This document shows positions 10,258 to 37,769 of a DNA stretch of 64,000 nt, piece by piece; the stretch's first letter is position 1; every line of letters starts with the position of its first letter. Position numbers and translations under genes: made by a program. The DNA lies in IMG/VR virus record IMGVR_UViG_3300017917_001342, positions 183,669-247,668 of that record, one strand, 5' to 3'. This stretch comes from a virus. The notes under the pieces are model-generated. The model was not told the origin of the DNA and searched no databases. It saw only the letters and a list, made by a program, of their open reading frames with translations.

Positions 10258-13200
10258 ATGAAAATCAATCAAATTATCAAGCTCAATGAAGAAGATCCCA
10301 TGGGAGTCGGTAATGACTGGGTAGGGTCAGATGGCATTGTAAATGATTTAGAGACTAACAATAGAATTGTAAAAATTACAGGTGAAATAGCTGGTGCACC
10401 AGGTGCCACTGCTGAAGAAATTATAGATACACCATGGTATAAACGATGGTATAAAAACATGGGCTATGGTATAACGAAACTAGGCCGTGGTGCAAAGTGG
10501 ACATTAAAATGGGTAGCTGTTCCAGTTATTGCATTGTATGATTGTTACAATGCCTATCAAGAAATCGCTGCAATACCAAAAGACGATCCAGATAGATTAG
10601 AAAAAGGCACAGCTATAATTTCTAAATTAGTTGCATCGTACGGCTTACCAGTTGTTGGGGGTTATATAGGTGCATTAATAGGTGCTGGCGTAGGTGTATG
10701 GGCAGGTGGTATAGGTGCTTTACCGGCATCAACAATTGGTGCACTTATTGGAACTGCTAGTGCAATAACTGCACAGGTAGTATATGGCGACGATATAGAT
10801 GCAGAAATTGAAAAGCTAGTTAGTGCAATTTTTGATGTAATTGACAGTGAAGATTCAGAAACTACTACAACACCGCAAGACACTGAATCTAATACTTCAC
10901 CTGTTCCGGCCGGACAACCTAACTTTGATAATTTATCATATGAAGATGCATGGAAGGCAGCAAGAAAATTAGCCACAGAACTAGATCCAGATGAACCTGG
11001 GTCTTATTCCTTTGTGTGGCAAGGAAAAACTTATCCGACAAGTTCAAAAGATGAACCGTTAATACCAGCCGAACGTAGACGTAATTTAATTACATTAAAT
11101 CAACTAAACGAAGGTATTGGTTCAGATATCGGTGCAGTTATAAAAGACCTGTTTAAAGGTGCTAAAACACTAGAGCCAGAAATAAAACAAGGAGCAGATG
11201 CAGCCGCAGATGCAGCAAGAGCCGCTGAAGACGCAGCCGCTGCATTAAAAGCTGGTCAAAGTGCAGAAGACGCAGCAAACGTTGCAAAAGAATTAAACAT
11301 TGCAATAAGAGAAAACAATAAATTCCTTGCTGGACTATTAAATGACGCTAGTCATGTTGTAGAGTTAAACGGAAAGAAATATGCTAGGTATTATAGTCCT
11401 GCAAAAGACAAATGGATATGGACAGATATACAAGCCGCCGAAGCAGGCGGTAAACGATCATCTGGGTTTGTAGCCGATGCAACTGCTAAAGAATTAGATG
11501 ATCTGATTAAATCTGGTACAGACACTGCAACAGACGCTGCAAAAGTCGCAGACGATGCTGCAAAAGCTGCTGACGATGCTACAACTACACCGCCTGCTGC
11601 CGCAGATGACGCTGCAACATCAACTACACCAAAACCGGCAGAACCTACAACACCTAAAGCCCCAGAACCTGCAACACCCGCAGCGCCATCTAGACTTACA
11701 CCTGAATACATAGCAAAAATGAAAGCTAAGCCTGTAAGTAAATGGACTGATAAAGAACTTGCAGAATGGGGTTATCCGCCCGAACTTAGAAATGCAGTGA
11801 GTTTTATACAAAAAACAGATATTGATATGCTGATACCTCTGGCTCAAGCATACAAAGTACCAATGCTCAAGAGTATTGCACAGTTAGCAATGAAAACGCC
11901 TGGCGCATTGTTCAGAGCTGTTAAATTACCAGTTACCAATCCAATTGCAATTTTGTTTATTACGGCCCCGGCTGCATTGACATTTTTTAAAGGTGTATTA
12001 GAACTTGATCCGTCTGATCCTCAATACAAAGAAAAATTAACAAAACTAGTTGTTGAATTTGTTGAAACTGTTGGTATCGGTGTTGCTGCTTGGTACATAA
12101 GTGGATTTGCCGGTAAAAAGTTAGCTGGCTTGTTAGGGCTATCAGAAGCTGGTGCATTTGCTTGGTTATTAAAATGGGTTGCTAGAGGCGGTACTATCTG
12201 GGCAGTAAACGAAAATGCAACAATACAATCGTTAATACAAGACCTTATAGGTAAAGGTGCTGATGCAATTGTTGGACCGACTACAAACAATAACGCAACA
12301 ATAAAAACTAATCCCCTATATAAACAAGGTTTTGATTGGGCAAAAGCTCGAGGATATTCAGATCACGACTCTGATGCATTTGCTAGACATATTGTTCAGC
12401 AAGGCGGATTCCGTAACGAATATAAGTTTAACGAACATGCAACTAACACATTTGCTCTTGCATGGTTGTACAAACAATTAAACGAATCTAACAGTCCAGT
12501 TAGAATTGTAAAGATAAACAAACACATTAAAAATCTGTTAGAATACTTTGACAATTCTAATGCAGTGCATAAATTTGCAATTTCATTGTCGGAATCTATC
12601 AGTTTCAATGAAGAACAAACAAATAATTTTATGACTAATATAACTGCTGCTATTGCGGCTAACACCAAAGGCGACAAAATGGGTGCGCAAAAAGCATTAG
12701 ATGCAGCTAAGCAAAGTCAACCTGCAACAGCACAAGATCAAATTAATCAAAAGAAAGTACTAGATCAAATGGCTAGAACCAACCCTGGATTAAACATACC
12801 GAACACCAATCAAAATGTAACAGAAGACGATCCGATGGGCGCAGGTAATGATTGGGCAACTACTGCAAATGCAAATGATCCAACTGCAAAAGGCACAGAT
12901 CTACTTGCTGCGTATAATGAATTTGCTGCAAAATATCCTGCTGCTAAATTCTTATTGGACATTGTACCTGTTACAGGTACTGCAACCAGTGTTATTGATG
13001 CAAGTCAAGACCTATACAACGGAAAATACGGAAAAGCTGCACTTGATATTCTAGGTGCTATACCAGGTTTCAAAATTGGAAAATATATAAGTCAAGGTCT
13101 AGCTAAAGCTATAAAAGCTGCAAATGTAACTACTAAAACTGCAAACTATGCAAACGCTACAGCAGGACTTGTAGGCAATGAAATCAACGAATCACCTAAA

Positions 13201-15291
13201 GTAGGCGATCACATGATGTTGGAATTGGCAGATGGCCGCGTTGTGGTTGCACCAATTGCAGAACTGCGCGGCAATGGTATAGTAGTAGAACTAGACGAAA
13301 CTGGTAACCAGTGGTTAGAAGAAAGTCCAGAACATCATGCCCTTAAGATAGGTCAAGGTGACGGACACCCATTGAGTACTACAGCCGAAATTTGGAACGC
13401 TATGATAGATCAGTTACCAAGCGATACACCGGACGGTTGGGCAGAAGTATTCATTAGTATGCAAAATCAAACGGGTCAGCCTGCTAGAATCATGCCAAGA
13501 CTTTGGTCGCAAATTTGGCGTCAACAGCACAATGCGCTAGGGGATAGCCTGACTAGAGTTGATATGACAAATTGGGCAGAAGAAGTAGGTAAAGCATTAG
13601 ACAGATCAGGTTTAGTTGAATCATCAATAGAACCATCTAACAGCAATAAGTTAAAGAAACATCTGGATCCTAAAGACCCTGCAATGCTAGCAGTATGGAT
13701 GGCAAGTCGTGCTGGTATAAAAGGTGTACCGGTTGACAAATTTGCCAAAGCCAAAGCTGTACAAAGCGGATTGCCAGCAGACCACTGGTGGAAAAAGATT
13801 AAAAAACTAGTGCAAGAAGGTGCAGTACCAACAGTGCCTAGACTATTAGCTGCTAGAGATATTGAGCCTCTGGTACATTTTGAAGGCGACTATTACATAG
13901 TAAGTCACAACGATGGCAAACATTTAAAGTACGATCTAGTTAAAAAAGTAGTAGCAACAACTGATCGTAACACACCTGCATATCAACATGTAGATCATCT
14001 AGACACAGGTCTACACAGGATTACTAAAGAACAGCTTCGCAGATTAGCTAATGTTGCAATGGAAGCAGATAAACTTGCAGATGGTGAGGACGATACTCCT
14101 GATTTGCCAGACCTACTAGGCGTTATTGCACAGGTAATGGGCCGCAAAGTGCGTAAGCATCCAGATGCATTGTCAACTACCGTTAAGAAATCTGACATGG
14201 GTTATGTAGTCAGTAACCTACTGGTTAGACACTTAGATGGTACAGAAGCACAGGATTTGAAAAATGCATTGCATCGTGCAGGATACAATGTATCAAAAGT
14301 CATTATCAATCCAACAACTATATTGGTAATACTGAAAACTACAAAAACAACTCCTAATACCACAGCTATAATAACTGCTACTCCGCAACCAGATGTAGTA
14401 GGTGGACTTGCAGAAAGTGCCTATGCTATGGAAAAGCGTTATTACATAGTTCGTAAAGACGTTCCCACTGCACCAGTACCGGGTATGAGCGGCTATCACC
14501 AAAAGAGTGAAGCTGATAAAAAACTTGCCAGCATGAAGAACAGTGATCAATATATGGTTCGTGCAATTGACAGCAAGCGTTTGCCAAAAGATGAAATTGC
14601 AGAAGCACGTAGAGATTTTAACTTTGACGAAAACGATATTGCACGTATAGCAGCAATGGATGATCTTGATGCTGCTAAACGATATGCTATCAAATTGATA
14701 ACAGCTAAAACTCGTAGACCAATGACTAAAGATAAGATCATGTGGTTTACAAATTCTATCAATGATACCAAGACAATGAATCGTTTAGTCAAAATGCTTT
14801 ACGACATGATGCTAAGTGGCGAAGGTCATGGTGTTATTGGTGATAGATATTCTACTGGTAAAAGCAGTTATCGCAGACAGTTCGATGAAGAATCACAACG
14901 TCTAGATCCAAAATGCTGGAAGGGTTATCGTAAGCAAGGCACTAAAGTTAAAGACGGAGTTCGTGTTAACAACTGTGTAAAAGTCAACGAAGAAATAAAC
15001 GAAGCAGAATACCAAGGCAAAAGTGTACCTCTCAACAAGCCAATACGTACAAGCCCAAGTGAAGGCGGTAAGTTCAAAGTCTATGTAAAGGATCCTAAAA
15101 CTGGTAACATCAAAATGGTACGTTTTGGTGATACTACTGGGTTGACTATCAAACGTGATGATCCAGAACGTCGTAAGAATTTCCGTGCAAGACACCATTG
15201 CGATAATCCAGGTCCAAAAACCAAAGCACGCTATTGGTCCTGTAAGATGTGGACTCGCAAGCCTGTTGGTCAAGTGTTGAAAGGAAAATAA
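10258..15291 (+). CDS. Giant modular polyprotein, probable packaged/ejected head protein
   Basis: 1677 residues from ATG 10258; a GTG at 10165 lies inside the terminator and is rejected. The tag MKINQIIKLNE|E is followed by predicted (L/I/V)-x-E cuts after E285, E743, E856, E978, E1121, E1386 and E1582, which would give eight or nine pieces. Module 12-285 has glycine-zipper hydrophobic stretches (about 140-190). Module 286-743 has Ala-rich coils, a Pro/Thr linker and more hydrophobic segments, so it could enter membranes as ejection proteins do. The new N-termini after E11 and E856 are near copies (EDPMGVGNDW, DDPMGAGNDW). The C-terminus has two Cys/basic motifs, CWKGYRKQG...NC and ARHHCDNPG...YWSC, which I recognise as recurring in phage proteins without known function. 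Confidence 0.8.
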   Translation: MKINQIIKLNEEDPMGVGNDWVGSDGIVNDLETNNRIVKITGEIAGAPGATAEEIIDTPWYKRWYKNMGYGITKLGRGAKWTLKWVAVPVIALYDCYNAYQEIAAIPKDDPDRLEKGTAIISKLVASYGLPVVGGYIGALIGAGVGVWAGGIGALPASTIGALIGTASAITAQVVYGDDIDAEIEKLVSAIFDVIDSEDSETTTTPQDTESNTSPVPAGQPNFDNLSYEDAWKAARKLATELDPDEPGSYSFVWQGKTYPTSSKDEPLIPAERRRNLITLNQLNEGIGSDIGAVIKDLFKGAKTLEPEIKQGADAAADAARAAEDAAAALKAGQSAEDAANVAKELNIAIRENNKFLAGLLNDASHVVELNGKKYARYYSPAKDKWIWTDIQAAEAGGKRSSGFVADATAKELDDLIKSGTDTATDAAKVADDAAKAADDATTTPPAAADDAATSTTPKPAEPTTPKAPEPATPAAPSRLTPEYIAKMKAKPVSKWTDKELAEWGYPPELRNAVSFIQKTDIDMLIPLAQAYKVPMLKSIAQLAMKTPGALFRAVKLPVTNPIAILFITAPAALTFFKGVLELDPSDPQYKEKLTKLVVEFVETVGIGVAAWYISGFAGKKLAGLLGLSEAGAFAWLLKWVARGGTIWAVNENATIQSLIQDLIGKGADAIVGPTTNNNATIKTNPLYKQGFDWAKARGYSDHDSDAFARHIVQQGGFRNEYKFNEHATNTFALAWLYKQLNESNSPVRIVKINKHIKNLLEYFDNSNAVHKFAISLSESISFNEEQTNNFMTNITAAIAANTKGDKMGAQKALDAAKQSQPATAQDQINQKKVLDQMARTNPGLNIPNTNQNVTEDDPMGAGNDWATTANANDPTAKGTDLLAAYNEFAAKYPAAKFLLDIVPVTGTATSVIDASQDLYNGKYGKAALDILGAIPGFKIGKYISQGLAKAIKAANVTTKTANYANATAGLVGNEINESPKVGDHMMLELADGRVVVAPIAELRGNGIVVELDETGNQWLEESPEHHALKIGQGDGHPLSTTAEIWNAMIDQLPSDTPDGWAEVFISMQNQTGQPARIMPRLWSQIWRQQHNALGDSLTRVDMTNWAEEVGKALDRSGLVESSIEPSNSNKLKKHLDPKDPAMLAVWMASRAGIKGVPVDKFAKAKAVQSGLPADHWWKKIKKLVQEGAVPTVPRLLAARDIEPLVHFEGDYYIVSHNDGKHLKYDLVKKVVATTDRNTPAYQHVDHLDTGLHRITKEQLRRLANVAMEADKLADGEDDTPDLPDLLGVIAQVMGRKVRKHPDALSTTVKKSDMGYVVSNLLVRHLDGTEAQDLKNALHRAGYNVSKVIINPTTILVILKTTKTTPNTTAIITATPQPDVVGGLAESAYAMEKRYYIVRKDVPTAPVPGMSGYHQKSEADKKLASMKNSDQYMVRAIDSKRLPKDEIAEARRDFNFDENDIARIAAMDDLDAAKRYAIKLITAKTRRPMTKDKIMWFTNSINDTKTMNRLVKMLYDMMLSGEGHGVIGDRYSTGKSSYRRQFDEESQRLDPKCWKGYRKQGTKVKDGVRVNNCVKVNEEINEAEYQGKSVPLNKPIRTSPSEGGKFKVYVKDPKTGNIKMVRFGDTTGLTIKRDDPERRKNFRARHHCDNPGPKTKARYWSCKMWTRKPVGQVLKGK

Positions 15292-15292
15292 T

Positions 15293-15742: not shown

Positions 15743-16474
15743 ATGAGCGATAGCCCCTATACAGTTGTTAGTAAATCGTTTGATGAATTAAATGCTGCAA
15801 GTGAAGAAGCGCAGATTGCAGCAGTTAAAGCCAGACCAAATCTAATAACAAAAATTGATAATCCCAGTGCAGCAGTGCAATGGGCAGCAATTGAAGCTCA
15901 CGCAATTGTTGCCAGATACTTAGAGCATCTCGATGAGCGTGTACAACGAAAACTGATAGAAATAGATTATCGTAATCTACGTTACATAAACAATCCATCG
16001 CCTAGTATACAGTTAGCAGCAGTAACAGAAGATCCTAAAAGTATTCAGTATATTACCAATCCAACTCCAGAAGCACAGGTTGTAGCAACTAAAAAATGGC
16101 CCGAGGCTATACGATACATCAGTAGTCCAACCGAAGATGCGCAGGTAAATGCAGTTCTTGGTCATCCGTGGTCTATAGAACACATTGCTGAGCCTTGTGT
16201 GCAAGCACAAAAAATTGCAATATATAGTCAACCAGGTACAATGTTTGACTTGCAATGGCAGTTAGATCCTAATATCTTCAAAGAAGATGTAATCAAAACC
16301 GCCATTATTCGCACGATATTAACATCGTTAAAAAAGGACGGTAATACATATCAGGCAAGAAGATTTATCAATTTTTTAAAATCTTTTGATGTACAATGGC
16401 CTGAACTCGCAGTTATAGAACGTAGCATAGGCAACGAACCAGATGATGAATATGACGAAGGAATTCAACTATGA
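15743..16474 (+). CDS. NPxxEAQ-repeat protein with C-terminal WPEL unit
   Basis: 243 residues. Residues about 20-165 hold six or seven repeats of about 23 residues, each with an 'I..I.NP(S/T)..(A/V)Q.AAV' core (INNPSPSIQLAAV, ITNPTPEAQVVAT, ISSPTEDAQVNAV). This is a helical solenoid known from other phage proteins. It ends with FDVQWPELAVIERSIG, the repeat of the neighbouring genes. A fused solenoid and WPEL unit suggests a protein-binding scaffold. Its stop overlaps the next ATG (ATGA). Confidence 0.8.
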   Translation: MSDSPYTVVSKSFDELNAASEEAQIAAVKARPNLITKIDNPSAAVQWAAIEAHAIVARYLEHLDERVQRKLIEIDYRNLRYINNPSPSIQLAAVTEDPKSIQYITNPTPEAQVVATKKWPEAIRYISSPTEDAQVNAVLGHPWSIEHIAEPCVQAQKIAIYSQPGTMFDLQWQLDPNIFKEDVIKTAIIRTILTSLKKDGNTYQARRFINFLKSFDVQWPELAVIERSIGNEPDDEYDEGIQL

Positions 16475-17220
16475 AAGCCAATGAATTCATTAACGAATCT
16501 ATCAAATGGCAAGGCAACTCAGGTGCTACTCAAGCACGCCAAACTGATCATACTATTGAGGAAGCACGACGTTACGTTAAAGAAAACTATCCTCGAAATA
16601 AAACCTATACTATCAGCAGACTTGAACCAGGGTTTAGAGCATTGGATGCCAAAACCGGCTCTACTAATCCCAGTGCAGCAAATGCTACACTAAATCAAGA
16701 AGCAGCACTGAACCAGTTTGTTGAAATCTTTAAACTAAAACAAAATCCCTACATGAGCGGCAGCGAGCAAGTAACTGGCAGTATAGGATTCAGTTGGCAT
16801 GTAGGTGAAGATAAAGAGCGCAAGCATGCCATCTTCTATTATGAAGATCGCGGCATGGGCAATGACAGTATCACCATTGCTGCAAAAACCATTGTTGAAC
16901 TCAAAGTAATGCAAGAAGTTCTTATTCATACAGGTCTTATCCCTGATCCTGATGAGGCCAAAGCAAAACGCACCGCTGACGCAGATAAACGTAGAGATGT
17001 ACTTGCTAAAAAAGGCATTAAAATTGGTACTCGCATTACTGCTCGTAGACTAGACAACGGCGAAGTGTGGTTTGCTGGCAACGTAACTAGCATTGCACAA
17101 AACGGCTCTGTGGGTATTACTATTGATCAAGTAGATCCTGCTGTACAAGGTGTTACAGTTGGCAGTGTGTATAAAATGAAGCCAGGTAGTATTAGCAAAG
17201 ACATGATCTCCAATGACTGA
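16471..17220 (+). CDS. Probable internal head protein
   Basis: 249 residues. The N-terminus MKANEFINE|S matches the head-tag pattern very well (T4 internal protein III begins MKTYQEFIAE|A). The mature part has a helical N-terminal half, a beta-rich centre (FSWHVGEDKERKHAIFYYED) and a C-terminal SH3-like barrel (about 178-240, KIGTRITARRLDNGEVWFAG). No enzyme motif seen. It overlaps the preceding stop by four bases and is followed by a late promoter. Confidence 0.8.
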   Translation: MKANEFINESIKWQGNSGATQARQTDHTIEEARRYVKENYPRNKTYTISRLEPGFRALDAKTGSTNPSAANATLNQEAALNQFVEIFKLKQNPYMSGSEQVTGSIGFSWHVGEDKERKHAIFYYEDRGMGNDSITIAAKTIVELKVMQEVLIHTGLIPDPDEAKAKRTADADKRRDVLAKKGIKIGTRITARRLDNGEVWFAGNVTSIAQNGSVGITIDQVDPAVQGVTVGSVYKMKPGSISKDMISND

Positions 17221-17230
17221 TTATTTTCAA

Positions 17231-17236
17231 TAAATA
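17231..17236 (+). promoter_or_regulatory. T4-type late promoter candidate
   Basis: TAAATA in TCAATAAATATCAT, with AGGAG five bases later and the ATG at 17253. This is a conventional short leader with a ribosome site. Confidence 0.65.
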
Positions 17237-17252
17237 TCATAGGAGATTTATT

Positions 17253-17699
17253 ATGCGATTAGCAGATTTGTACGGCGACTTGTTTGAGTCTATCACAGCA
17301 GATGATATTAAAGATCCTATTTCCAAGGGACTAGTTCCTAATTTCATCCACAGTATGCCGTCTACTCATCTGCTAACAGGTATGGATCAATACTATCAAT
17401 ATTATAGATTCTTGATTGCCATTGCAGGTTACCCGGAAGATTCCGACATACCATTAACTAGTGTTGTTAGGGATTGGCCTATGACAGTAGCATACACTAC
17501 ACAAGAAAAAGAAATGATAGATAAAGTTGCCAAACGTATGGGTATATCACCTACAGAAATTGCGTACGAAGGCAGTAAAGAATTACCCGATACCTACACT
17601 GTAAGTCCGGTAATGAAATTTTCAATGACTGAATCTCAACACCGCAAATTAAAAAATCTAGCAGTTCTAACAGAGGCAATGATAAATGAAACTAAATGA
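17253..17699 (+). CDS. Small tagged protein, paralogue of the first domain of the next gene
   Basis: 148 residues. The tag MRLADLYGDLFE|S is followed by a domain whose order of motifs (YYQYYRF, a Trp-containing turn, YTTQEKEMIDKVAKRMG, VSPVMKFSMTES) matches residues 35-125 of the protein from 17686 (YLQYRF, YTPEEIETVRLAAEQSG, VSPVMPFHMSET). The function of the shared domain is unknown. The end overlaps the next gene by 14 bases. Confidence 0.8.
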   Translation: MRLADLYGDLFESITADDIKDPISKGLVPNFIHSMPSTHLLTGMDQYYQYYRFLIAIAGYPEDSDIPLTSVVRDWPMTVAYTTQEKEMIDKVAKRMGISPTEIAYEGSKELPDTYTVSPVMKFSMTESQHRKLKNLAVLTEAMINETK

Positions 17700-19485: not shown

Positions 19486-19516
19486 TTAATGCTGCAACTG
19501 CACAACGGAGGTTGTA

Positions 19517-19687: not shown

Positions 19688-19698
19688 TTGTTTTAAAC

Positions 19699-19704: not shown

Positions 19705-19709
19705 TCTGC

Positions 19710-27120: not shown

Positions 27121-27127
27121 ACAACGA

Positions 27128-27133: not shown

Positions 27134-27162
27134 TCCCTATAACAGCACGGGTATTTTTCTAA

Positions 27163-28530
27163 ATGCAGATACAGAGTTTAATGGAAGCAAAAAACATTCC
27201 GCCGGATGTAGCTGCAAAAATAGACAGCATAGTAAAATCCATGCTGAAAACTGGCTACATAGATGTGTGTGTAAGACGACTTGAAGATGAAGGTCTCACA
27301 GATGCTGGCATACTTGATGTGTTAACTCCACATGCAGACAAGCTAGTAAATCTCATAACAAGTAAAAAGCATAAGACATTACCTGGTTATACAGTTTATG
27401 AGTTGCTATTACTATTAGGTATAGGAGCAAGATGGCCGTCGTTAATTGCAGCACTTGCCAATAACAAAGAGTCAGTAATTAAGTACATTTTAACACAGTT
27501 TAAAGAATATTCTAACGATGATATCGAAATGGATATAATAAATTTCGATATAAAAGTTTTGCAAAAATTAGGTATCGATTGGCCAGAATTAGCAGTTATA
27601 AAAAAATCTGTTGAAAACGAATTGGTAAGAATGGGTCACCCGCCATCATTAATGGAAGCACAGCCTGTAATACCTCAAAAACTTATTAAAATATTCAACC
27701 AACATCTTAACAACATATATGAGCGCGGTATTGACAAGTTAGCGTATTTGATAATTGATATGAAAAATGCAGGTGCAACCGATCAACAGATTGCATCGCT
27801 TCTCAGTGAAAAGCGTCAAGAAATTGTAAAGATACTCAGAAATACTATTCACAATGAATCTCCTAAAAACTGGAGAGCAATTAACGAATTTGCTGTTGCA
27901 ATTGCGTCATTATTAGATCTTGGAATCAAATGGCCGCCATTATTAGAATTATTAAACTACTATCGAGATAAAATCGAAGCCTGGGCAATTGCTGCGGTAT
28001 TTGATGCAGGATTTGGCAAGCATGTTGCTGAGAAATTACGTAAGTTTGAACAATTGGGTTTTGATATATTACCAATACGCCGAGCAATCAAAGCAAACAT
28101 ATTACCTACACTAAAAGAATATCTTACTAAAAATGGTATTGATCATTATACAGTTGCTAAATTAGAGGCTATGCATAGACTAAATCTATTGCCTAAAGCT
28201 CTAGATGACAAAACTACTAAACTTGTTTTTGATGCAATAGAAAACTCTATGAGCAAAGGTATGCCTAATGATTTCAAAAATGCATTGAAATATTTTGCAA
28301 TGATGAACATACCAAATCTTGAATCAACCGTAAAAAGCATAGTAGAAGCTAATAAAACACCTGTTATAAAATCATTACTAACTGCTATGAAAACTGGTTT
28401 AGGTAATGCAAACAACTATTACACGTTACCAACTTATTACATAGTAGATACACTACAGCTATTACATAAACTAGGTATACAGTGGCCAGAAATTGCTGCA
28501 ATTACTAGAAGCTTGAAGGCAGGGCGTTGA
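27163..28530 (+). CDS. WPEL-repeat polyprotein
   Basis: 455 residues. The tag MQIQSLME|A is followed by PPDVAAKIDSIV, closely similar to the start of the protein from 36507 (tag, then PPDVIEQLNGLL), so the two are paralogues. An internal LME|A cut lies after E165. Repeat units end RWPSL, IDWPELAVI, KWPPL and IQWPEIAAI; two have lost the Glu, the mark of decaying repeats. Wholly helical, no catalytic signature. Confidence 0.85.
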   Translation: MQIQSLMEAKNIPPDVAAKIDSIVKSMLKTGYIDVCVRRLEDEGLTDAGILDVLTPHADKLVNLITSKKHKTLPGYTVYELLLLLGIGARWPSLIAALANNKESVIKYILTQFKEYSNDDIEMDIINFDIKVLQKLGIDWPELAVIKKSVENELVRMGHPPSLMEAQPVIPQKLIKIFNQHLNNIYERGIDKLAYLIIDMKNAGATDQQIASLLSEKRQEIVKILRNTIHNESPKNWRAINEFAVAIASLLDLGIKWPPLLELLNYYRDKIEAWAIAAVFDAGFGKHVAEKLRKFEQLGFDILPIRRAIKANILPTLKEYLTKNGIDHYTVAKLEAMHRLNLLPKALDDKTTKLVFDAIENSMSKGMPNDFKNALKYFAMMNIPNLESTVKSIVEANKTPVIKSLLTAMKTGLGNANNYYTLPTYYIVDTLQLLHKLGIQWPEIAAITRSLKAGR

Positions 28531-28531
28531 T

Positions 28532-30391
28532 ATGGATATGTACGGCAACTGGGTTTATTCAGCTTTAAAAGACGTTGTTCGTCAACGTCAATACAAAGAT
28601 GTGGCATTCAAACTACGTAATCTTGGTAGAGAAGGTGTGGCATTTGCTAAATCTGATGATACAACAGCATTGCTTAACGATCGCAAAGACAACTGTCTAC
28701 GCGGTATACTGTTCATAATGAAGTATCACGACGATTATGGTCTTTATGGTCAAGATTTTGTTGATATTGCCAACGGTGCTCGCAAGGTTGGGTTAAACTG
28801 GCCTGAATTGGACATTATTGAAAAGGCTGCTAAATCAATGCCCGAAAATCCATATATAGATGAAGCTATGCATATTGATTTAAAATCTAGTCGTGAACAG
28901 ATATTAGATAAACTTGAACAGATATTCAATGATCCCGGTACGGATGTATTTGATCGCATTGCTGAATTAGATATTGCTAGGAATGTGCTACGACGCATAG
29001 AAAAATCAGACGTTGCCGAAATATTAGCAAAATACAAAACCAATATCATTAAAGACACTCTGCATTATATGCGGCACGGTGTAGTAGAAGTAGACATTCC
29101 TGTATATTTAGAAACACTTCAAGACCTTGGTGCAAACTGGCCCGAATTAACCATCATTATGAATAGTTTTAAAAAACCAAAAAACACACCATTAGATGAA
29201 AACGCACACGATGATTTAGATACAGTATTGGCATCGTTAAAAGACGATGCAGTAGCAAGACCAATTAAAGTAGCTTTTAATAGAATGTCAAATGACATGG
29301 CTGAACACTACAACAGAAAACCTATTTTGGATTTTCTAAAATTTGTTGATCGCTACAAACCCTACATCGGCGACGAAAATATACACTTAATAGTAAATGC
29401 TACTAAGCAGAAAATGTTAGAATATATAGAATGGGTGATAAGCAACTATTCTAAACCGTTTGCAGATCTCACTTTAACCGAACCGCTGTCTAACACATTA
29501 AAATCTATTGCATGGTTAAAACATCACTACGGCATAACATGGCCAGAGTTAAGCACTGTGCTGAATACCTATAAGACTGGTATAATAAAAACCTGTTTGA
29601 AACAGGCTAAGGATGCAAATAGCTACAGCATCGAAGACTTAGAAGATCTCATAACACACCTAGACGCTATAGGAGTCAACTGGCCTGAAATTGCTACTAT
29701 CAAAAAAAGTGTGTTTACCCAACTAGACGAAAGCATAAACATGACTGACCATGGTGTCGCCATGATACTGAATAGTTTAGAAGATCAGCATTTTGATGAC
29801 ATACCCTATGCATTGGCAATTATTGGCGATGCAGACAGGCGTGCTAATTATGGGCTTGTGCCAGCGTTTGACGAAAACAAAACAGAAATAATGCGTGTTA
29901 TATTAAAAGCAATACGCGATCCAGATGAATATAATCTTTGGTTTCCAGAAGCATTTGAAAAAATGATACGAGGTGCAAGACTGCTTGGTATAGATTGGCC
30001 TGAATTTAAAGCTATTGAACGCAGCATCGGCTCAGATGAATTAGACGAAGGTGAAGCGGGTAATTCTGCAATGCAGTATAACCTAAGCGGTGTGCTGTCT
30101 AGTATTAAACATGACGAACCTAGAGAAATGGTATTGTTCCTAAGTCAATTGGTTTGGATTGACAAATGGGGACTTGCAGAGTTAACAGACTACTCAAAAG
30201 AATTGACTCCGCACATCAAATTTATAGTAAAAGCCCTACTTGAATTTTTAAAATACGAATCAGATGATGCAGAACCAATAGACACTGTTAGAGACTGTCT
30301 AAGAGTATTAGAAAAGATGAATGTATCAAGCCCAGACTTGGACATAATTAAACGCAGTTTAGCAGTAGGAAAAGTCAATGACCAGCAGTAA
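28532..30391 (+). CDS. WPEL-repeat polyprotein with four regular cut sites
   Basis: 619 residues starting MDMYGNWVYSALKD, without a head tag. The Trp of the repeats is at 90, 203, 337, 384 and 489. Predicted cuts follow E111 (IDE|A), E223 (LDE|N), E400 (LDE|S) and E506 (LDE|G), that is 16 to 21 residues after a repeat each time. Processing would give five helical pieces of about 105-175 residues, four of them ending in WPEL..I..S plus a short linker. The final repeat is degenerate (SSPDLDIIKRSL). It overlaps the next gene by 14 bases. Confidence 0.85.
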   Translation: MDMYGNWVYSALKDVVRQRQYKDVAFKLRNLGREGVAFAKSDDTTALLNDRKDNCLRGILFIMKYHDDYGLYGQDFVDIANGARKVGLNWPELDIIEKAAKSMPENPYIDEAMHIDLKSSREQILDKLEQIFNDPGTDVFDRIAELDIARNVLRRIEKSDVAEILAKYKTNIIKDTLHYMRHGVVEVDIPVYLETLQDLGANWPELTIIMNSFKKPKNTPLDENAHDDLDTVLASLKDDAVARPIKVAFNRMSNDMAEHYNRKPILDFLKFVDRYKPYIGDENIHLIVNATKQKMLEYIEWVISNYSKPFADLTLTEPLSNTLKSIAWLKHHYGITWPELSTVLNTYKTGIIKTCLKQAKDANSYSIEDLEDLITHLDAIGVNWPEIATIKKSVFTQLDESINMTDHGVAMILNSLEDQHFDDIPYALAIIGDADRRANYGLVPAFDENKTEIMRVILKAIRDPDEYNLWFPEAFEKMIRGARLLGIDWPEFKAIERSIGSDELDEGEAGNSAMQYNLSGVLSSIKHDEPREMVLFLSQLVWIDKWGLAELTDYSKELTPHIKFIVKALLEFLKYESDDAEPIDTVRDCLRVLEKMNVSSPDLDIIKRSLAVGKVNDQQ

Positions 30392-31559
30392 AAACGCAGA
30401 TGAATTAATTGCTGATCGTATGGACGGTTTAAAAAAGCAAGAACCTCTAGCACTTAGAGGATTAATCCATAATCTAAAGAGCAGACCCTATGAATGGTAC
30501 GATGATGATATTGCTGCACTGTTAGAAGAATACAAAGCTGACATATTAAAATACATCACACGCAAATATCATGTGGGCCAGATATCATTACCAACTAATG
30601 ATATTAAAAAGCTAATGAGTGTTGGAATACAATGGCCTGAATTAACTGATCTTGTCAACCGATACAAAACAGCTATTATCAAAAATGTACTAGAAACTCT
30701 TAAGCTAGATTACAGAAACGTAGCTGACACTGTAGGTACGTTGACTAGTATGAATCTCGGTTGGAAAGAATTAGACGCAATTAATCGTAGCTTAAATGCA
30801 CTGCGTAATAATGTAAACGAAGCTTTAAAGTATGATAACAATGAAATAGAAGAACTCAAAACTAACATAATTCAAGACCTACATGACGGATATTATAGAG
30901 ATGCGTTAGATGTCATAGCAACACTGTGGCATGACAATAGTAATCTTGGCGACGTAACTGCTATAACACGTTTATTGGAAAAACATAAACGTGGGTTGAT
31001 TACACAGTTATTAACTGTAATCAAATATAGTAGCACTTACGAATTAAGCAAATATTTTAAAGATTTTATTAAAGGACTACAAGATTTTGGGATTGATTGG
31101 CCAGAATTCGACGCTATGTTAAAATCGATCAACGCTGACAAAACAACACTTGATGAATCTTATTCAAAAAACGATGCAGAACAGTATAAGGATGAAATCA
31201 TTAATACCATTAAGAAGGATGATATGGATGATTTGTTTGAAATGCTTGCTGAGTTTGCATGGATACCGAGAGCACTTGTAGGCGATGTTACAAAACTAAA
31301 TCGTATACTAGAACTACACAAAGTTCGAGTAATAAAAGCATTACTGTCTTATATGCGAGAGCTAGATGACAGCGGTATTTGCTACATCATGCCACAAATT
31401 CTAGGCGGTTTAGAACATGCTGGCATAAATTGGCCCGAGTTAAAAATTATAGATCAAAGTGTTGACAAAATACAAAAACGTCGCGAAGCCGAAGATGACG
31501 ATTTGTATGAGAGTAGCAAAGCAGTAAATACTACTGCAAAAAAGGCTCGCAGACGATGA
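30378..31559 (+). CDS. WPEL-repeat polyprotein
   Basis: 393 residues. It starts MTSSKNADELIADRMDG inside the end of the previous gene. Repeats end IQWPELTDL, LGWKELDAI, IDWPEFDAM and INWPELKII. Cuts are predicted after E148 (VNE|A) and E260 (LDE|S), each 19 residues past the Trp. The C-terminal tail after YESSK is basic (TTAKKARRR). It overlaps the next ATG by four bases. Confidence 0.85.
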   Translation: MTSSKNADELIADRMDGLKKQEPLALRGLIHNLKSRPYEWYDDDIAALLEEYKADILKYITRKYHVGQISLPTNDIKKLMSVGIQWPELTDLVNRYKTAIIKNVLETLKLDYRNVADTVGTLTSMNLGWKELDAINRSLNALRNNVNEALKYDNNEIEELKTNIIQDLHDGYYRDALDVIATLWHDNSNLGDVTAITRLLEKHKRGLITQLLTVIKYSSTYELSKYFKDFIKGLQDFGIDWPEFDAMLKSINADKTTLDESYSKNDAEQYKDEIINTIKKDDMDDLFEMLAEFAWIPRALVGDVTKLNRILELHKVRVIKALLSYMRELDDSGICYIMPQILGGLEHAGINWPELKIIDQSVDKIQKRREAEDDDLYESSKAVNTTAKKARRR

Positions 31560-33865
31560 CACCTCATGAAATTCGCGTAACTCTAAATTTCTTCTTAGAA
31601 GATCTACAAGAAGAACGTTACATTGATGCTGTCAATGGTCTGATAGAATTGTATGCCTATACCAATTCTGATTATCCTCCATATGCTGATCGTAAAAACC
31701 AAATACCCTTTGACAAAATCAGCGAATTACTACAACAGCATAAAACTGGTATTGTAAAACGCTTGTTGCGTTACATGAAGCATTATGATGCAGATGAAGT
31801 AAAACGATTTGTGTTGCTTGCTATCAATGCATTAAAACACTTTGGTATAGATTGGCCTGAACTAGCTGTTATGAAAAACAGCGTTTCGCCGGAAGTTGAA
31901 GAATCCTGGAGCAACAAATATAAGAAAAGCATCAATTGCAGCAATCCAAAAGGTTTTAGTCAACGTGCGCACTGTGCTGCTAGACGTAAGCGCAAAGCTG
32001 GCGGTAAGACTAAGAGCAAGCCAGTGAGAGAAGCATTGAGTTCGCCGCTGGGAGGTATTGTGCTGTCAATGCAAGACGCATTGCGAAAAGGCAGTGATGC
32101 CGCAGTATCGCATCGTGTTATTGACCTTTGGCGTGCTAACACAGCAGAACGACAGCGTGCAAGCGATATGCTAGCAGATGTAGAACACTTGGTAACAAGT
32201 TATGTAGAACGTCATCTCGGTTCAGAAAATCATTTAGATGTACAAGACGGCTTGAACATGCTTCAAGTTTTACCACCAAGTGAAGATTGGGCAGACTTGC
32301 AAGTGTTATTAAACAAATACAAAACCAACATACTAAAGTATTTGTTAAAGTGCATGAAGGATAATGATATAGATATACCTCATTATCGAATACCTGTGTT
32401 GAAAAAATGGGGCACAGATTGGCCAGAACTGGACACAATCTACACCAGTGCTGATTCAGAATTGAAAAAACAAAAACGTATAGACGAGGGTGTTATTGCC
32501 TATCATGCTAGCCCGGTTGCTACAATTCGCAGCAAACGTTTTTGGCCATTTACACATTTTGGCAGTGAAAAAGCCGCAGCAGATCGTATCAAATATCTAA
32601 AGAAAACAGGCGAACTTGCAAAGGACTCGCCAGTCAGAGTCTATCAAGTTGAACTCAATATCAACAATCCCGCTGTAATCAAAGATGAACCTGTGCAACA
32701 CAGTGCAACACAGTTTGCATTTGCATTGAAAAAGGCCAAGCTGATTTCTCAAGAGGAAATGGAAAGCATCACAAAACTTGGACACGATCCTGTTACCTAT
32801 AAGCCTACTATGAGTTACGCTGATGCTGAAAAGCAACGCAATCGTAAATTGAGAGCATTGATGCGTAGCAAAGGCTTTGACGGATTTGCGTATGTGAATC
32901 GCTTTGAAGACAAAGGCAGTATGAGCTATGTCATACTGGATCCCGCACAAGCTAGAACATTGCGACCAGTTAAAGCAGCGCCCGCAGAATTAAAAGAAGA
33001 TGAACGCAACAATTTTTCCACAGTGTTTAGAAATCGTTCTGAACAAGAAGGTGGTCACCGTTTTACACTCAATGCAGATGAATATGTAGAACATATAGAA
33101 AAACTCTTAAAATATGGAATGCTAGCAACTGATAATGTAGTGATAGAATTAGCTACGCTGGGTCGACGCAGGCCCGATGCAATTAAAAATTGGCCAGAAC
33201 TAGCTAACTTATTAAATCAACACAAAGATGAGTTGATGCGCATTATACAACATCACTTTAATAAAGACGTTACCAGTGAGCATGCAATGGCTCGCAGTGT
33301 TGATGTTGCAGGTGCATTAAAGCTAATTGGTATAGACTGGCCAGAAATCGCTCAGCTTATTGAAAAGAACAAGCACAAAATAGTCAAAACACTGCTTGAG
33401 TTTATGCGAGATGAATATGACGCCCATATCCCATACGAACTTAAAACACTGCGTAGCTATGGTGCAGATTGGCCAGAGTTAGCAGTAATTGAAAAAAGCC
33501 TAAACGCAGGATTGAATGAATCAAAGTCTAACAAATTACCGCAGGACGTTACTGACATGGTAATGGACATGCTTAAACGAGATGGCACAGGCATCGCACT
33601 GTATCATATTTGGGAATGGAAATTAGACATAGATAAACTGCCAGAATTAGAAGAATTCCTAAACGACCGCAAGCAAACCTATATGGAAATTATGTTGAAA
33701 AACATGAAGATGGGCGGAGACGCACTATACGGTACAGAACAGTATTTAGAACGTTTAGAAGGTACTAAAATAAATTGGCCTGAACTCAAAGTCATACGTA
33801 ATAGCTTAAATAAGCTATTAGCAGAATTGCATGCGTCGGAAGAACATCCAAATGAAAACCATTGA
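31556..33865 (+). CDS. Polyprotein: WPEL units plus ADP-ribosyltransferase-like module
   Basis: 769 residues. Cuts are predicted after E116 (VEE|S), E159 (VRE|A), E311 (IDE|G), E481 (LKE|D) and E655 (LNE|S). Piece 117-159 is a basic peptide with Cys (SINCSNPKGFSQRAHCAARR). Piece 312-481 starts VIAYHASP, then FWPFTHFGSEKAA, VRVYQVELNINNP, LMRSKGFDGFAYVN and SYVILDPAQAR. That order (Y-H, H-F-G, GFDGF, final I.(D)P) is the ART-like domain found in phage polyvalent proteins. The other pieces are WPEL helical units (IDWPEL, TDWPEL, NWPEL, IDWPEI, ADWPEL, INWPEL). The ART piece may modify host proteins after injection, as T4 Alt does. Confidence 0.85.
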   Translation: MTPHEIRVTLNFFLEDLQEERYIDAVNGLIELYAYTNSDYPPYADRKNQIPFDKISELLQQHKTGIVKRLLRYMKHYDADEVKRFVLLAINALKHFGIDWPELAVMKNSVSPEVEESWSNKYKKSINCSNPKGFSQRAHCAARRKRKAGGKTKSKPVREALSSPLGGIVLSMQDALRKGSDAAVSHRVIDLWRANTAERQRASDMLADVEHLVTSYVERHLGSENHLDVQDGLNMLQVLPPSEDWADLQVLLNKYKTNILKYLLKCMKDNDIDIPHYRIPVLKKWGTDWPELDTIYTSADSELKKQKRIDEGVIAYHASPVATIRSKRFWPFTHFGSEKAAADRIKYLKKTGELAKDSPVRVYQVELNINNPAVIKDEPVQHSATQFAFALKKAKLISQEEMESITKLGHDPVTYKPTMSYADAEKQRNRKLRALMRSKGFDGFAYVNRFEDKGSMSYVILDPAQARTLRPVKAAPAELKEDERNNFSTVFRNRSEQEGGHRFTLNADEYVEHIEKLLKYGMLATDNVVIELATLGRRRPDAIKNWPELANLLNQHKDELMRIIQHHFNKDVTSEHAMARSVDVAGALKLIGIDWPEIAQLIEKNKHKIVKTLLEFMRDEYDAHIPYELKTLRSYGADWPELAVIEKSLNAGLNESKSNKLPQDVTDMVMDMLKRDGTGIALYHIWEWKLDIDKLPELEEFLNDRKQTYMEIMLKNMKMGGDALYGTEQYLERLEGTKINWPELKVIRNSLNKLLAELHASEEHPNENH

Positions 33866-36503
33866 TTTAAACATATTTTTAGAAGCTCAAGGTCCTGCAA
33901 AGATACCAACTGGTTCTGGTAAGTCCACTATTGCAAACCCTGCGCATTCTCCCGGTAGCTATTACGAAGGTGATCCTGCTAACTTTGATTTTGGTGCACA
34001 GCGTAGAAACTACCAAGCATTAAATGCCGCATTGGCACGTAACGGTAAAAAGCTTAATTACATCGGTGTTTCCAAAGCAGATAGTGGTAGAGACACCTTT
34101 GTTGCAACTGCACCCGGTGTTGTATGGTACAAATACGAAGGCAGCAATCCACAGTCTGGACAAAACATACTCTACATCAACGGTGTTAAAGACAAGTTTA
34201 CGTCATTTATGGCATTGTCGCCAGAGGAACAAGACAAGAAACTGTCTGCAAGTCCTGCTGCATTGAGTTTACAAAAAGGTGATGTGTTTGGTTATATCAA
34301 TGCACTGGCTGCGTCAGATGCGCCTGCAAACACTGTTGTTGACAGTTTGAATCAAAACAAAGATTTGATACTGCAACGAATAGCAAACGAACTGTTAAAC
34401 TACCCAAAATACATATCTAAGATAAAAACCTTTAATAAAGCATTGGCTAACAAAGGTGCGTTGCTACCATGGTTAACAGTTGACGAAATTTTAAAAGCAA
34501 TCCAGCCTGTGATATCGAAAGATCTGTTCGACTATTTTTTAAGGTGGCCAAGTACAGATTCATTGAAACGTATCAAATCTGCAATCGCAGTTGGATTGCT
34601 GTTTGACATGTCTTATATGCAAGAATTGACCAATAACAATGTTGATGGGTTTGTCGAACGCTTTTCTAGTCCCGGCATGTTTACCGGACCAGGATATCGC
34701 ATGGTAGACAACCTAATAGAATTTCTAACTCTTGTACGCTACAGTAACCCACGATTAGAAGTTAAGAATCTAATTGACAATGTGGATTATAAGCGCATTG
34801 TAAAATATTTAAACGATTCTAGCAATGTAACAGGAAATGTATATCAAGCTGCTAAACTGTTGTTAAATGCAGGATTTCCAAAAGATCGCATTGTACAGGC
34901 ATTTGAAGATCTAAAAGAAGAAATGGTTGGCAATGCACTGCTTAAATTAGTTAGAACTGCTAGAGTTGATGATATTGGAAATCTCAATGCAGCACTTAAT
35001 ATACTTGGTATATCATGGCCCGAAATTGTTGGGGATAATATACGTAAGCTGATTGAAAATAACAAAACTAATATTATTAAAACTATACTTACTAATGTAA
35101 AAAATGGAGTTTTTCAAAATGCGTTAAATGCTGTCGATTTCTTTATAGATAACGACTACAAATGGCCAGAGCTAGCTGCAATAAAACGAAGCTTAATCGC
35201 TTCACTAAATAACCGAACAGACGAAACACGCAACAGTTTGAGTAACAATATGAAAATCGACGAAGTTGAACAATTAGACGAGGACCTTGGTAATCTAAAT
35301 CAGCTAGGTATGGGTCCGCTGCTTAATGTACTCAAACAGGAGCATTGGAGTCGCCGAAATTACGATCCAGAGATACGTCCGGTCGGCAAGCGTTTTGTTG
35401 GATCGGGCTATGACCGACGAGTAGGTCCTAACAGCGAAATACAAGACATTGGTGCAGTAAAAGACATTCTTAAATCTCTACGTAAAGCATTTAAAACCAC
35501 AGCAGCCGTTGCATTTGCACTATATATAGGCGGCAAACCTGTGATGTTTGGTGTCACAGATGAATATACACTAGCAGGCAGCAGTCGTCATGGTAAAATT
35601 GCCTACGATCTAACACCCTGGGCAGAAACTGTTAAGCTGTATGATCAGCAACAAAAAGGTCGCTACGCACCTAGTACACAGTTGACAACTATGCGTGACA
35701 AAGAAGAACGCAATTACAGTGATCCACGCGACAAATGGGATACTCCTGTAATGGTTACTCAAAAATACGCAGGTGATATGATATCAACTGGCGACTTGTC
35801 AACTATTGCAAAAGTAATTGAATTTATTTCTGCTAACACAGGCGAACCTATCACAGCTAAGTTAGTAATGAAAGACGAAGCTGGCTTTGAAAAAATGAAA
35901 AGCCGACAGATCAATCATGTTGCAGTTCGCAGTGCAGCAGAAGATCTCAAGCATAGACTAAGTGTTTACAAGAACAGCAAAAAACCATCTGTAGATACTA
36001 TTGAAGATTTTATTGCTATGAGCCTTAGAAAACCAGGCAGTGTAGTTCAGTTTGCAGGTGTACCATATCGTTTAACTGCAACCAGCTACGATAAAATAGA
36101 ACCAGTATCTTTGCTATCAGGTAAAGAGTTTAGCACAGATTATAAAAGCAATCTCAAGGACGATTATCATAACAGTGTTAGGATCTATTACAGATACGAC
36201 AAAGACACTAATCAATTGTTGCCGATATATGCCGAATGGTATGACAAAACTGATCCAAATAACCCATCATATCAACGAGTATCTGCTGTTCTAGATGGCA
36301 AAGGTTATATCAAAAGTAGACTAAAAGTGCAGTCGCTAACAAAAGAAGCGGTGATACCAAAAATATTAGAGAAGATTAAATCGTCGCAATTCAAAGATGC
36401 ATTGTTATATGTTCAGGCATTGCAAAAAATGGGTATGGACTGGCCAGAGTTAAGTGTTATTGAACGCAGTGCAAATGCTGAATTAAACAAGCCGAGAGAC
36501 TGA
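33852..36503 (+). CDS. Large tagged polyprotein with WPEL units
   Basis: 883 residues from ATG 33852, overlapping the upstream gene by 14 bases; an in-frame start at 33831 would bury the tag. MKTIDLNIFLE|A is the closest match here to the T4 capsid-targeting sequence (MKTYQEFIAE|A). A Gly/Asn/Tyr-rich region follows (12-100), then long helical stretches with ISWPEIV and YKWPELAAI. A cut lies after E477 (LDE|D). Residues about 495-790 are a mixed alpha-beta domain (TTAAVAFALYIGGKPVMFGV, WAETVKLYDQQQ) without a family I can name. One more unit (MDWPELSVIERS) closes the protein. Confidence 0.85.
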   Translation: MKTIDLNIFLEAQGPAKIPTGSGKSTIANPAHSPGSYYEGDPANFDFGAQRRNYQALNAALARNGKKLNYIGVSKADSGRDTFVATAPGVVWYKYEGSNPQSGQNILYINGVKDKFTSFMALSPEEQDKKLSASPAALSLQKGDVFGYINALAASDAPANTVVDSLNQNKDLILQRIANELLNYPKYISKIKTFNKALANKGALLPWLTVDEILKAIQPVISKDLFDYFLRWPSTDSLKRIKSAIAVGLLFDMSYMQELTNNNVDGFVERFSSPGMFTGPGYRMVDNLIEFLTLVRYSNPRLEVKNLIDNVDYKRIVKYLNDSSNVTGNVYQAAKLLLNAGFPKDRIVQAFEDLKEEMVGNALLKLVRTARVDDIGNLNAALNILGISWPEIVGDNIRKLIENNKTNIIKTILTNVKNGVFQNALNAVDFFIDNDYKWPELAAIKRSLIASLNNRTDETRNSLSNNMKIDEVEQLDEDLGNLNQLGMGPLLNVLKQEHWSRRNYDPEIRPVGKRFVGSGYDRRVGPNSEIQDIGAVKDILKSLRKAFKTTAAVAFALYIGGKPVMFGVTDEYTLAGSSRHGKIAYDLTPWAETVKLYDQQQKGRYAPSTQLTTMRDKEERNYSDPRDKWDTPVMVTQKYAGDMISTGDLSTIAKVIEFISANTGEPITAKLVMKDEAGFEKMKSRQINHVAVRSAAEDLKHRLSVYKNSKKPSVDTIEDFIAMSLRKPGSVVQFAGVPYRLTATSYDKIEPVSLLSGKEFSTDYKSNLKDDYHNSVRIYYRYDKDTNQLLPIYAEWYDKTDPNNPSYQRVSAVLDGKGYIKSRLKVQSLTKEAVIPKILEKIKSSQFKDALLYVQALQKMGMDWPELSVIERSANAELNKPRD

Positions 36504-36506
36504 TCT

Positions 36507-37769
36507 ATGAAGATTACAGAGTTATCAGAGGCTGTAGAATTACCGCCAGATGTTATAGAACAACTTAACGGTTTATTAATTAAACCATTGCGTGATACTC
36601 TGATAAGACGTATGGCATATCCAAATCTCTATTACATAATTGATACATTTGAAGATATGCTTGCTGATAAAAAATATGCCAAGTCGCCGCGTCGTAAACA
36701 GGCAATTGCGTTGCTATTTCCATATGTTTTGCAAGCATTAGATGAGATTATCAAAAATGCCAAAGCAGACGGTAGCTATTATCCTTTCACTAGAATAGTC
36801 AAGCTACTGAGATACAGCATAGACAACGAAGCTGTTGCAGAAGTTTTAGAAAACAACAAAGGCAAACTCTTACAGATATTAAAAGCCTTTATTGACAAAA
36901 CTCACAAATCTGCACATAACGTTGGACGAAATGCCGACGAGAGTGCAATTGTAGATATTGTCAATGCTCTTGATCATGCAGGCATTGATTGGATAGAACT
37001 CAAAGACCTATATAAACAACATTTCTATAATCGCTATAGCGGCTGGTTAAGTCAATCGCAAGACAAATGGGGTACAAATACTGTATTCAATGTGTTAAAC
37101 GACATGAGTAGGCACAAACTCACTATAGATGATCTCAACGAAGAACTAGCGAACCGTTTACAGTCTATGAAATCAACAATATTAAACAGATCACTGTTTA
37201 ATTTTAGACATGATTCTGTGCGATACGGTTTGGTAGAAATGGGAGACTACTATAAAAAACTGCGACGTCTTGGGTTCGATTGGCCTGAATTACAAATATC
37301 TAGCTTAGATCAATTCAAAACACCTATCATGCGTGAGTTACTGACACTGTTTAAAGAACAAAACGTAGGCCGCGCAGCAAAAATAGTAGCAGAATTAAAG
37401 CAGGCAACAGATTGGCCAGAACTAGCTGCTATGGAACGATCACTAGGTGCTAAACAACTTGATGAAGAACTGCACCCTGCACGTATCAAAGCAGTTGATG
37501 AATCTCTGCGCAACGGTGATTATATAGGTGCTGCACATTATATGGGTGTGTACGGTGTCAACATAGATGAGTTCGACAAGCGTGTTCGTGAACGATTTGA
37601 AGAAATGAAACCAGAAATCATTCGTGAAATGCTACAGCTTGTCAAAAACATTTCGCTCGATCGTGGTTATCGAATAATGGACAATGTTCGTAAAGCTGGA
37701 CTAGGTTGGCCAGAGATTGATATCATATTCAAAAGTCTAGACAAGTCCTACACTGAACGATACCGTTAA
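36507..37769 (+). CDS. WPEL-repeat polyprotein
   Basis: 420 residues. The tag MKITELSE|A and the following PPDVIEQLNG mark it as a paralogue of the protein from 27163. Units end IDWIELKDL, FDWPELQIS, TDWPELAAM and LGWPEIDII. A cut is predicted after E320 (LDE|E), 16 residues past the third Trp region. It starts three bases after the previous stop and is the last member of the array. Confidence 0.85.
   Translation: MKITELSEAVELPPDVIEQLNGLLIKPLRDTLIRRMAYPNLYYIIDTFEDMLADKKYAKSPRRKQAIALLFPYVLQALDEIIKNAKADGSYYPFTRIVKLLRYSIDNEAVAEVLENNKGKLLQILKAFIDKTHKSAHNVGRNADESAIVDIVNALDHAGIDWIELKDLYKQHFYNRYSGWLSQSQDKWGTNTVFNVLNDMSRHKLTIDDLNEELANRLQSMKSTILNRSLFNFRHDSVRYGLVEMGDYYKKLRRLGFDWPELQISSLDQFKTPIMRELLTLFKEQNVGRAAKIVAELKQATDWPELAAMERSLGAKQLDEELHPARIKAVDESLRNGDYIGAAHYMGVYGVNIDEFDKRVRERFEEMKPEIIREMLQLVKNISLDRGYRIMDNVRKAGLGWPEIDIIFKSLDKSYTERYR

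Follow-up and report, generated by a model that had tools for sequence, protein, structure and literature searches.

The window analysed here is a stretch of 64,000 nucleotides within a virus record of 518,643 bases (IMGVR_UViG_3300017917_001342; G000 in the comparisons below). Its positions 10,258 to 37,769 hold a cassette of genes whose products, named here by the first coordinate of their genes, carry a broad motif, hydrophobic-x-E/small, at the N-terminus and again between modules. The motif reads (L/I/V/F)-x-E followed by A/S/G/N/D, and the slash marks the predicted cut. The cassette probably encodes head-packaged polyproteins that are cut by the prohead protease and deliver injected proteins in a T4-like giant phage. 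The record contains a T4-type protease gene and a capsid protein with a matching site, most cassette genes begin with a T4-type capsid-targeting leader that ends in the cut motif, and related genomes exchange modules exactly at the joints. These features support the original prediction of prohead-processed polyproteins, which had been made from the letters of the window.

Cassette proteins, protease and leaders

Pfam matches identify several different domains within single chains (17686 and 22027 proteins; Table 1). In the 17686 protein, a CTP_transf domain resembling nicotinamide mononucleotide (NMN) adenylyltransferases follows LFE133/S (PF01467, 4.8e-9), an HExxH (zincin-like) piece follows ISE337/S, and the C-terminal piece (VWDKPNPVKKHKK...) is basic. 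HExxH is found in this chain only, with a weak M78 match, and the scanned pieces of the other chains carry no Pfam peptidase. The Polbeta piece of the 22027 protein matches PF18765 (1.5e-9), whereas the GNAT matches of this protein are weak. Sites in the 19710 protein lie at SLNE267/N, PLNE403/K, ALPE565/S and QISE660/S, and the homologues of the 19710 and 22027 proteins are fused in the related genome G002. Residues 312-481 of the 31556 protein are likely an ADP-ribosyltransferase, judged by eye only. The final piece of the giant protein is a module termed M2 (AEYQGK..., isoelectric point (pI) 10.4); further upstream in this protein, E856/DDPMGAGNDW echoes its own N-terminal E11/EDPMGVGNDW.

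The sites first proposed are all present in the expected context: seven in the giant protein (residues counted from the ATG at 10258), E8, E169, E288, E345, E516 and E622 in the 22027 protein, and four in the 28532 protein, which lie 21, 20, 16 and 17 residues past the W of a WPEL. Although its residues are correct, that list is selective. Further matches look internal to folded regions (E78 and E92 in the 22027 protein; E352, E630, E652, E1022 and E1187 in the giant protein), and E/NK matches recur inside the repeat of the 28532 protein, for example at E448. Matches inside modules, such as these E/NK sites, are probably left uncut. The gene at 24278-25120, which lies between positions 10,258 and 37,769, lacks cut sites at its ends and is not a member. 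The T4 late promoter TATAAATA has no match within the window, and late expression gains no support.

WPEL units are of two kinds. Those with Ser nine residues past Trp end a domain, whereas in those without Ser the solenoid mostly continues. A strict site follows within 30 residues in 14 of 15 Ser-type units, with eight more forming the protein C-terminus, compared with 3 of 14 units that have no Ser (Fisher p 1e-4). A structural model of one unit, built with 12 paralogues (confidence score pLDDT 80), is a helix bundle with a low-confidence tail that carries LDE. A fold search with this model gave no significant match; a tblastn search with a made-up WPEL-like string also gave none and carries no weight.

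Single-unit WPEL genes occur at G000:C1:77893-78156 (minus strand), G000:C1:338551-338814 (plus strand) and G002:C1:17473-17670 (minus strand). They are approximately the predicted piece size, have no obvious leader and end just after WPELxxIxxS. WPEL ends are also fused to 'I.NPS..VQLAAV' repeats (L137, L138, L140 and window 15743-16474), a second family tied to the cassette; the window 15743 protein matches phrog_5925.

The record encodes its own S77 prohead protease (PF03420, E 9.1e-26; G000:C1:407627-408076), and next to it are the genes of a scaffold, in which the strict motif occurs 16 times, and of a gp23-type major capsid protein. SGILFE/SATPG of the capsid protein aligns with SFLTE/AEIGG of T4 gp23, which sets LFE/S at LTE/A, the established cut in gp23. 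The T4 protease gp21 cuts after L/I-x-E (PMC9026906). Together, the S77 protease, the T4-type capsid site and the specificity of gp21 lead us to expect cutting at (L/I)-x-E/small in the phage of the window, in line with the assumption behind the original prediction.

A strict site falls within the first ~22 residues in 8 of 17 cassette genes, against 1.7 expected, and in 27 of 183 genes elsewhere in the record, against 16.3 expected; the latter include the scaffold, protease and capsid protein. Relatives of the 17253 protein have the leaders MRLTDLYGDLFE/N, MRIHDLYGDLFE/S and MRITDLYGDLFE/A.

Leader-like starts are also seen outside the cassette. A window protein of no assigned family (55114-55845, minus strand) starts MRIFEFDTLDE/ATEDS, and a 271-residue protein (L097:17681-18496, minus strand) starts with the canonical T4-type leader MKSFKQYLAE/N. 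A Fe/Mn superoxide dismutase gene (L094:14062-14601, minus strand, the same as G000:C1:104061-104600; PF02777 6.9e-21, PF00081 1.7e-12) encodes a protein that starts MKLAQLTE/SNKK, a possible targeting leader, so that a head-packaged superoxide dismutase is possible.

Table 1. Coordinates of cassette genes, selected joint residues and one further gene in the window
Feature	Position	Strand	Leader, joints and pieces
Giant polyprotein, 1677 residues	10258..15291	+	Leader MKINQIIKLNE11/; pieces bounded by E285, E743, E856, E978, E1121, E1386, E1582
Glu1582	15001..15003	+	P1 of INE/AEYQGK ahead of M2
Protein with leader	16471..17220	+	MKANEFINE9/S
Protein with leader	17253..17699	+	MRLADLYGDLFE12/S; LFE/S same as in major capsid protein
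Polyprotein with CTP_transf	17686..19485	+	Leader MKLNDLFE8/; piece 9-133
Polyprotein	19710..22025	+	GNAT-like piece 268-403; three WPEL pieces
Polyprotein, 739 residues	22027..24246	+	Leader MKLDDIFE8/; module 9-169; WPEL piece 170-288; basic piece 289-345 (pI 11.8); GNAT-like 346-516; Polbeta nucleotidyltransferase 517-622; C-terminal module 623-739
Glu345	23059..23061	+	Start joint of module insertion (KVNE/NELG)
Glu622	23890..23892	+	End joint of module insertion (VTE/AIAPHGD)
Protein with leader	25180..26088	+	MRLLDIFTPDYLLE/D; G002 counterpart MRLLDIFE/SFYLLE/D
WPEL polyprotein	26092..27120	+	Leader ...FSE14/A; joint QIDE174/N
WPEL polyprotein	27163..28530	+	Leader MQIQSLME8/A; joint SLME165/A
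WPEL polyprotein	28532..30391	+	Pieces of 106-177 residues; joints E111, E223, E400, E506
WPEL polyprotein	30378..31559	+	Joints E148, E260, E378
Polyprotein	31556..33865	+	Leader NFFLE15/D; WPEL piece; basic SWSN module 117-159 (pI 11.2); WPEL piece 160-311; basic module 312-481 (GVIAYHAS...); WPEL pieces
Polyprotein	33852..36503	+	Leader MKTIDLNIFLE11/A; joint QLDE477/DLGNL
WPEL polyprotein	36507..37769	+	Leader MKITELSE8/A; joint QLDE320/E (placed by eye alignment with G002)
Probable further targeted protein	44115..44981	+	Leader ...LKTYLKE18/A

Module exchange at the joints

The phage collection yielded no close DNA or whole-protein relatives of the cassette, the 28532 protein or the 22027 protein, and a pattern scan of the collection with the 22027 protein found no relative. 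Because the whole-protein searches were empty, single modules were searched instead, which led to the relatives G001, G002, G003 and G004. The best of these, G002, is a 158-kilobase fragment syntenic with the window (stretches L120 and L121); its counterpart of the giant protein (L120:992-6118) has sites at several matching joints.

Modules present in the window are missing from these relatives exactly between two sites. The 22027 protein reads KVNE345/, GNAT-like piece, IDE516/, Polbeta piece, VTE622/AIAPHGD, whereas G002 reads KTNE/AIAPHGD and G001 reads TNE/AAPAHGD, both enzyme pieces being absent. In the 31556 protein, the SWSN module stands between VEE116/ and KPVRE159/ALSSPLG; G002 has KPVAE/ALASPLG with no SWSN module there, and its copy of this module closes a different chain, behind ELDE/. 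Phage Bellamy encodes the SWSN module as a stand-alone gene of 51 residues (gp122), MKSFKQFQE/SWSNKYKKSIDC (SWSN...KPVE). Similarly, the module between RIDE311/ and ELKE481/DERNNFSTV of the 31556 protein is missing from G002, which reads QLDE/ADSRADFSTV.

Other joints coincide with gene boundaries. The internal QLDE477/DLGNL of the 33852 protein corresponds to a gene start in G002 (MTIDHLDLLE/DLGNL; L121:9903-11144), and the internal QLDE320/ELHPARIKAV of the 36507 protein to a separate gene, SVTE/SDISPELLSRMSKAV (L121:11141-11554). Conversely, the gene starts MKLDDIFE/AGPKIDN (22027) and SLME/AKNIPPDV (27163) are internal in G002, as LIAE/VGPAIDN and DLHE/DDSVSPKI. The CTP_transf module, internal in the window (GLFE133/SDGKQVLVVYPGRFQP), begins a gene in Melnitz-3 (MKKFSEIIE/ARGDTAVFTFGRFNPP). 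Modules of the window chains occur as separate genes with identical boundaries in relatives, and recognition sites of the virus protease appear to separate functional modules, as in a viral polyprotein.

The residues that are kept at a joint can be seen ahead of M2. This module was surveyed in 80 metagenomic viral loci, which gave 30 distinct upstream contexts (<40% identity), and 24 unrelated contexts were kept after Met-started and very short ones had been dropped. P1 is E in 21/24 and P3 is L/I/V/M/F in 22/24, whereas P2, P4 and all positions further upstream are variable. Judged by these alignments, the conserved residues ahead of M2 are solely those read by T4 gp21. Five metagenomic fragments have Met directly in place of E. 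In ten annotated phages of 18-54 kilobases, which are expected to have no S77 protease, the M2 gene starts with the module itself or close to it (MAKYQGRTVKLNKP..., MATYKGKSVSLNKP...). An S77 protease is encoded in 5 of the 6 contigs of at least 140 kilobases that bear a site before M2, the site-less contigs being too short to serve as negatives. In Roseobacter phage CRP-6, M2 heads a longer protein.

The CRP-6 protein (L012:2962-3651), in which M2 is N-terminal, is encoded just upstream of the capsid gene; judged by eye, the rest of it looks like an XkdF/HK97-type prohead protease. This protein suggests that M2 is head-internal in unrelated phages as well.

The same joints bear on the idea that gene fusions left old leaders inside longer proteins, where they might still bind the core, with cutting confined to the first site and the others being relics. 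Some internal joints indeed look like complete leaders (S-SM2 KTFEEFRE/S compared with Bellamy MKSFKQFQE/S). At most joints, however, the targeting part is lost and P3 and P1 alone are kept, as the M2 counts illustrate. In T4 IPIII, the 10 N-terminal residues suffice for packaging, residues 4 and 7 serving targeting and residues 8 and 10 processing, which is inhibited by Asp at position 10 (PMC9026906); retention of P3 and P1 amid variable neighbours thus points to a protease requirement rather than a targeting one. Relics would also not be expected to persist at so many joints, and this explanation is improbable.

A further possibility is that the motif is a functionless by-product of helical, Glu-rich linkers. 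Counts of the motif leave some room for it. The broad motif occurs 68 times in 18 cassette proteins, against 46.7±6.7 in shuffled sequences (p 0.004; 1.4-1.5-fold), and 22 times against 25 in 16 other window genes used as controls. A lysine mock motif, [LIVF]xK[ASGND], is raised as well (84 vs 59 shuffled), so that little can be concluded from the count. A narrower form, [LIVF][NDT]E[ASGND], picked after the data were inspected, occurs 28 times against 8.5 shuffled in the cassette and 6 against 4.6 in the controls; a near-identical narrow motif replicates in G001/G003/G004 (17 vs 4.3) and in G002 (15 vs 6.6).

Placement separates the two explanations. Break-points, defined as ends of local homology between genomes (identity of at least 42%, length of at least 35, each junction once), number 62. 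A strict site lies no more than 6 residues away on 44 of 124 sides, against 14.3±3.2 at random (3-fold), and on both sides of 15 of the 62 break-points, against 0.81±0.85 (18-fold). At the same break-points, none of the mock motifs (D, K, Q, N, E shifted by one, polar P3) is significantly above random. Since the relatives share history, the p-values of this comparison are optimistic; the mock motifs share that same history. An earlier run with default BLAST extension pointed in the same direction (p 0.02) and was too noisy. The by-product explanation is strongly disfavoured. The comparison with shuffled proteins suggested by the original prediction yields a weak excess in frequency; placement is far from chance.

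Predicted packaging, processing and fate of the pieces

Evidence from virions comes from relatives of the CTP_transf module, which belong to T4-GC190 (records L151-L153). T4-GC190 has been reported from purified virions of S-SM1 (PMC3037559), ORF91 of S-SCSM1 is in the virion proteome (PMC9602691), and a cytidylyltransferase is present in the S-CREM2 virion (PMC10665884). The authors of these studies point out that carry-over of such proteins in the preparation is also possible (PMC3037559, PMC9602691, PMC10665884). Virion packaging has been shown by others for relatives of one module family only. The CTP_transf relatives start MKSFLQFLKE/A, MKKFSAFLTE/A and MKSFSQFLTE/T. ORF91 itself, which starts MKSFLQFLKE/AAESG, has the internal sites GLRE/Q, DIVE/N and DVME/A, followed by QYVSER, NLNTGMIGEIIR and AVVNYPGPSGVSGPER, respectively; in Syn1, the module that corresponds to the second one of ORF91 is a gene of its own, starting MRDFKKLRE/Q.

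These virion proteins matter for another interpretation, in which the cassette encodes expendable prohead core (scaffold) proteins whose fragments exit to make room for DNA, like T4 gp22, gp67 and gp68, rather than delivered effectors. T4 core proteins and SPN3US propeptides also have several cut sites and mostly leave the head (PMC9026906, PMC10052503), and most WPEL pieces are acidic and helical. On the other hand, enzyme domains or strong basicity set several pieces apart from core proteins, a scaffold of the usual kind is encoded beside the protease, and mature virions have been found to contain homologous cytidylyltransferases (PMC3037559, PMC9602691). A core role is unlikely for the cassette as a whole, although the WPEL pieces alone could still have one.

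In the favoured interpretation, a T4-like giant phage would carry the cassette products inside its head as internal proteins. In most cases a long chain begins with one short capsid-targeting leader, so that all of it would be packed into the prohead core. The S77 (gp21-type) protease would then cut after Glu of (L/I/V/F)-x-E at flexible joints between modules. Among the predicted products are a Polbeta nucleotidyltransferase, enzymes of GNAT-like and NMN-adenylyltransferase-like type and an HExxH protein. The others are very basic peptides, 43-95 residues long, and numerous helical WPEL units of ~95-118 residues. All would remain with the DNA and enter the host together with it.

Several observations weigh against polyproteins processed in the head. 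Strict matches to this degenerate motif sit inside modules in several cases. Two thirds of break-point sides lie away from any strict motif, the break-points of related genomes are partly dependent, and BLAST ends and WPEL cross-matches blur the picture. Conservation in collinear alignments, which had been put forward as a check, does not separate the proposed sites (22/33 cells) from other matches (11/17). Genes 15293, 28532 and 30378 have no clear leader, which leaves the packaging of their products unexplained. An AlphaFold model of the 739-residue 22027 protein made with no alignment reached a pLDDT of 40 and was not used. For the phage of the window the evidence comes from sequence; that these particular proteins are packaged, cut and injected we infer from T4 biology.

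Known systems and neighbouring genes

Several known systems share parts of this arrangement. T4 IPI-III and Alt likewise have an N-terminal leader ending in (L/I)-x-E and an S77 protease in the genome (PMC9026906); they are packaged with DNA, as is probable for the window proteins, and MKSFKQYLAE-type leaders occur in the phage of the window and its relatives. In T4, one leader precedes one mature product, with an additional C-terminal cut in Alt (PMC9026906), whereas the window chains have several modules, repeated sites and exchange at these sites. Polyvalent proteins are multi-domain chains with GNAT-type enzymes, are thought to be packaged and injected, and have been likened to polyproteins (Iyer et al., 2017; PMC5512222). 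Their release is proposed to occur via peptidase domains inside the chain (PMC5512222); in contrast, the predicted cutter here is a separate prohead protease with a site at each joint.

In the giant phage SPN3US, ejection proteins are cut by gp245 in the head after x-x-E at several sites per protein (PMC10052503, PMC7411985). This system differs in that A-x-E is required, the extra cuts degrade a propeptide and a single mature fragment is retained. DarA and DarB of phage P1 have an N-terminal capsid-targeting part and are packed in the capsid, DarA being thought to be processed, but their description includes no series of cut sites that separate exchangeable modules (PMC9024508). Searches of an open-access library, which covers few subscription papers, gave no account of head-cargo chains split by prohead-protease sites or of module exchange at such sites.

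Aquatic T4-like phages in general (cyanophages, pelagiphages, methylophages and 500-kilobase phages) may share this arrangement as a strategy, which we regard as somewhat more probable than not. One leader would package a chain of effectors, the capsid protease would release equal numbers of each, and its recognition site would double as the recombination joint where effectors are swapped, making head cargo modular. For the majority of proteins in aquatic T4-like phages, no role is known. If the proposal is true, the site motif would mark packaged and injected proteins together with the ends of each mature product, and would point to modules of no known role that act as soon as infection begins. 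Such chains would also be the DNA-phage equivalent of RNA-virus polyproteins, with the capsid-maturation protease as the cutter, and would offer a natural way to load several cargos into a phage head via one tag.

Genes related to nicotinamide adenine dinucleotide lie near the cassette (window 34-7666). They encode a nicotinate phosphoribosyltransferase-like protein (34, by eye), a PnuC-like membrane protein (5962, by eye) and an NMN adenylyltransferase (6623, phrog_3462). The same flank encodes a ClpA-like ATPase (2570, phrog_4871).

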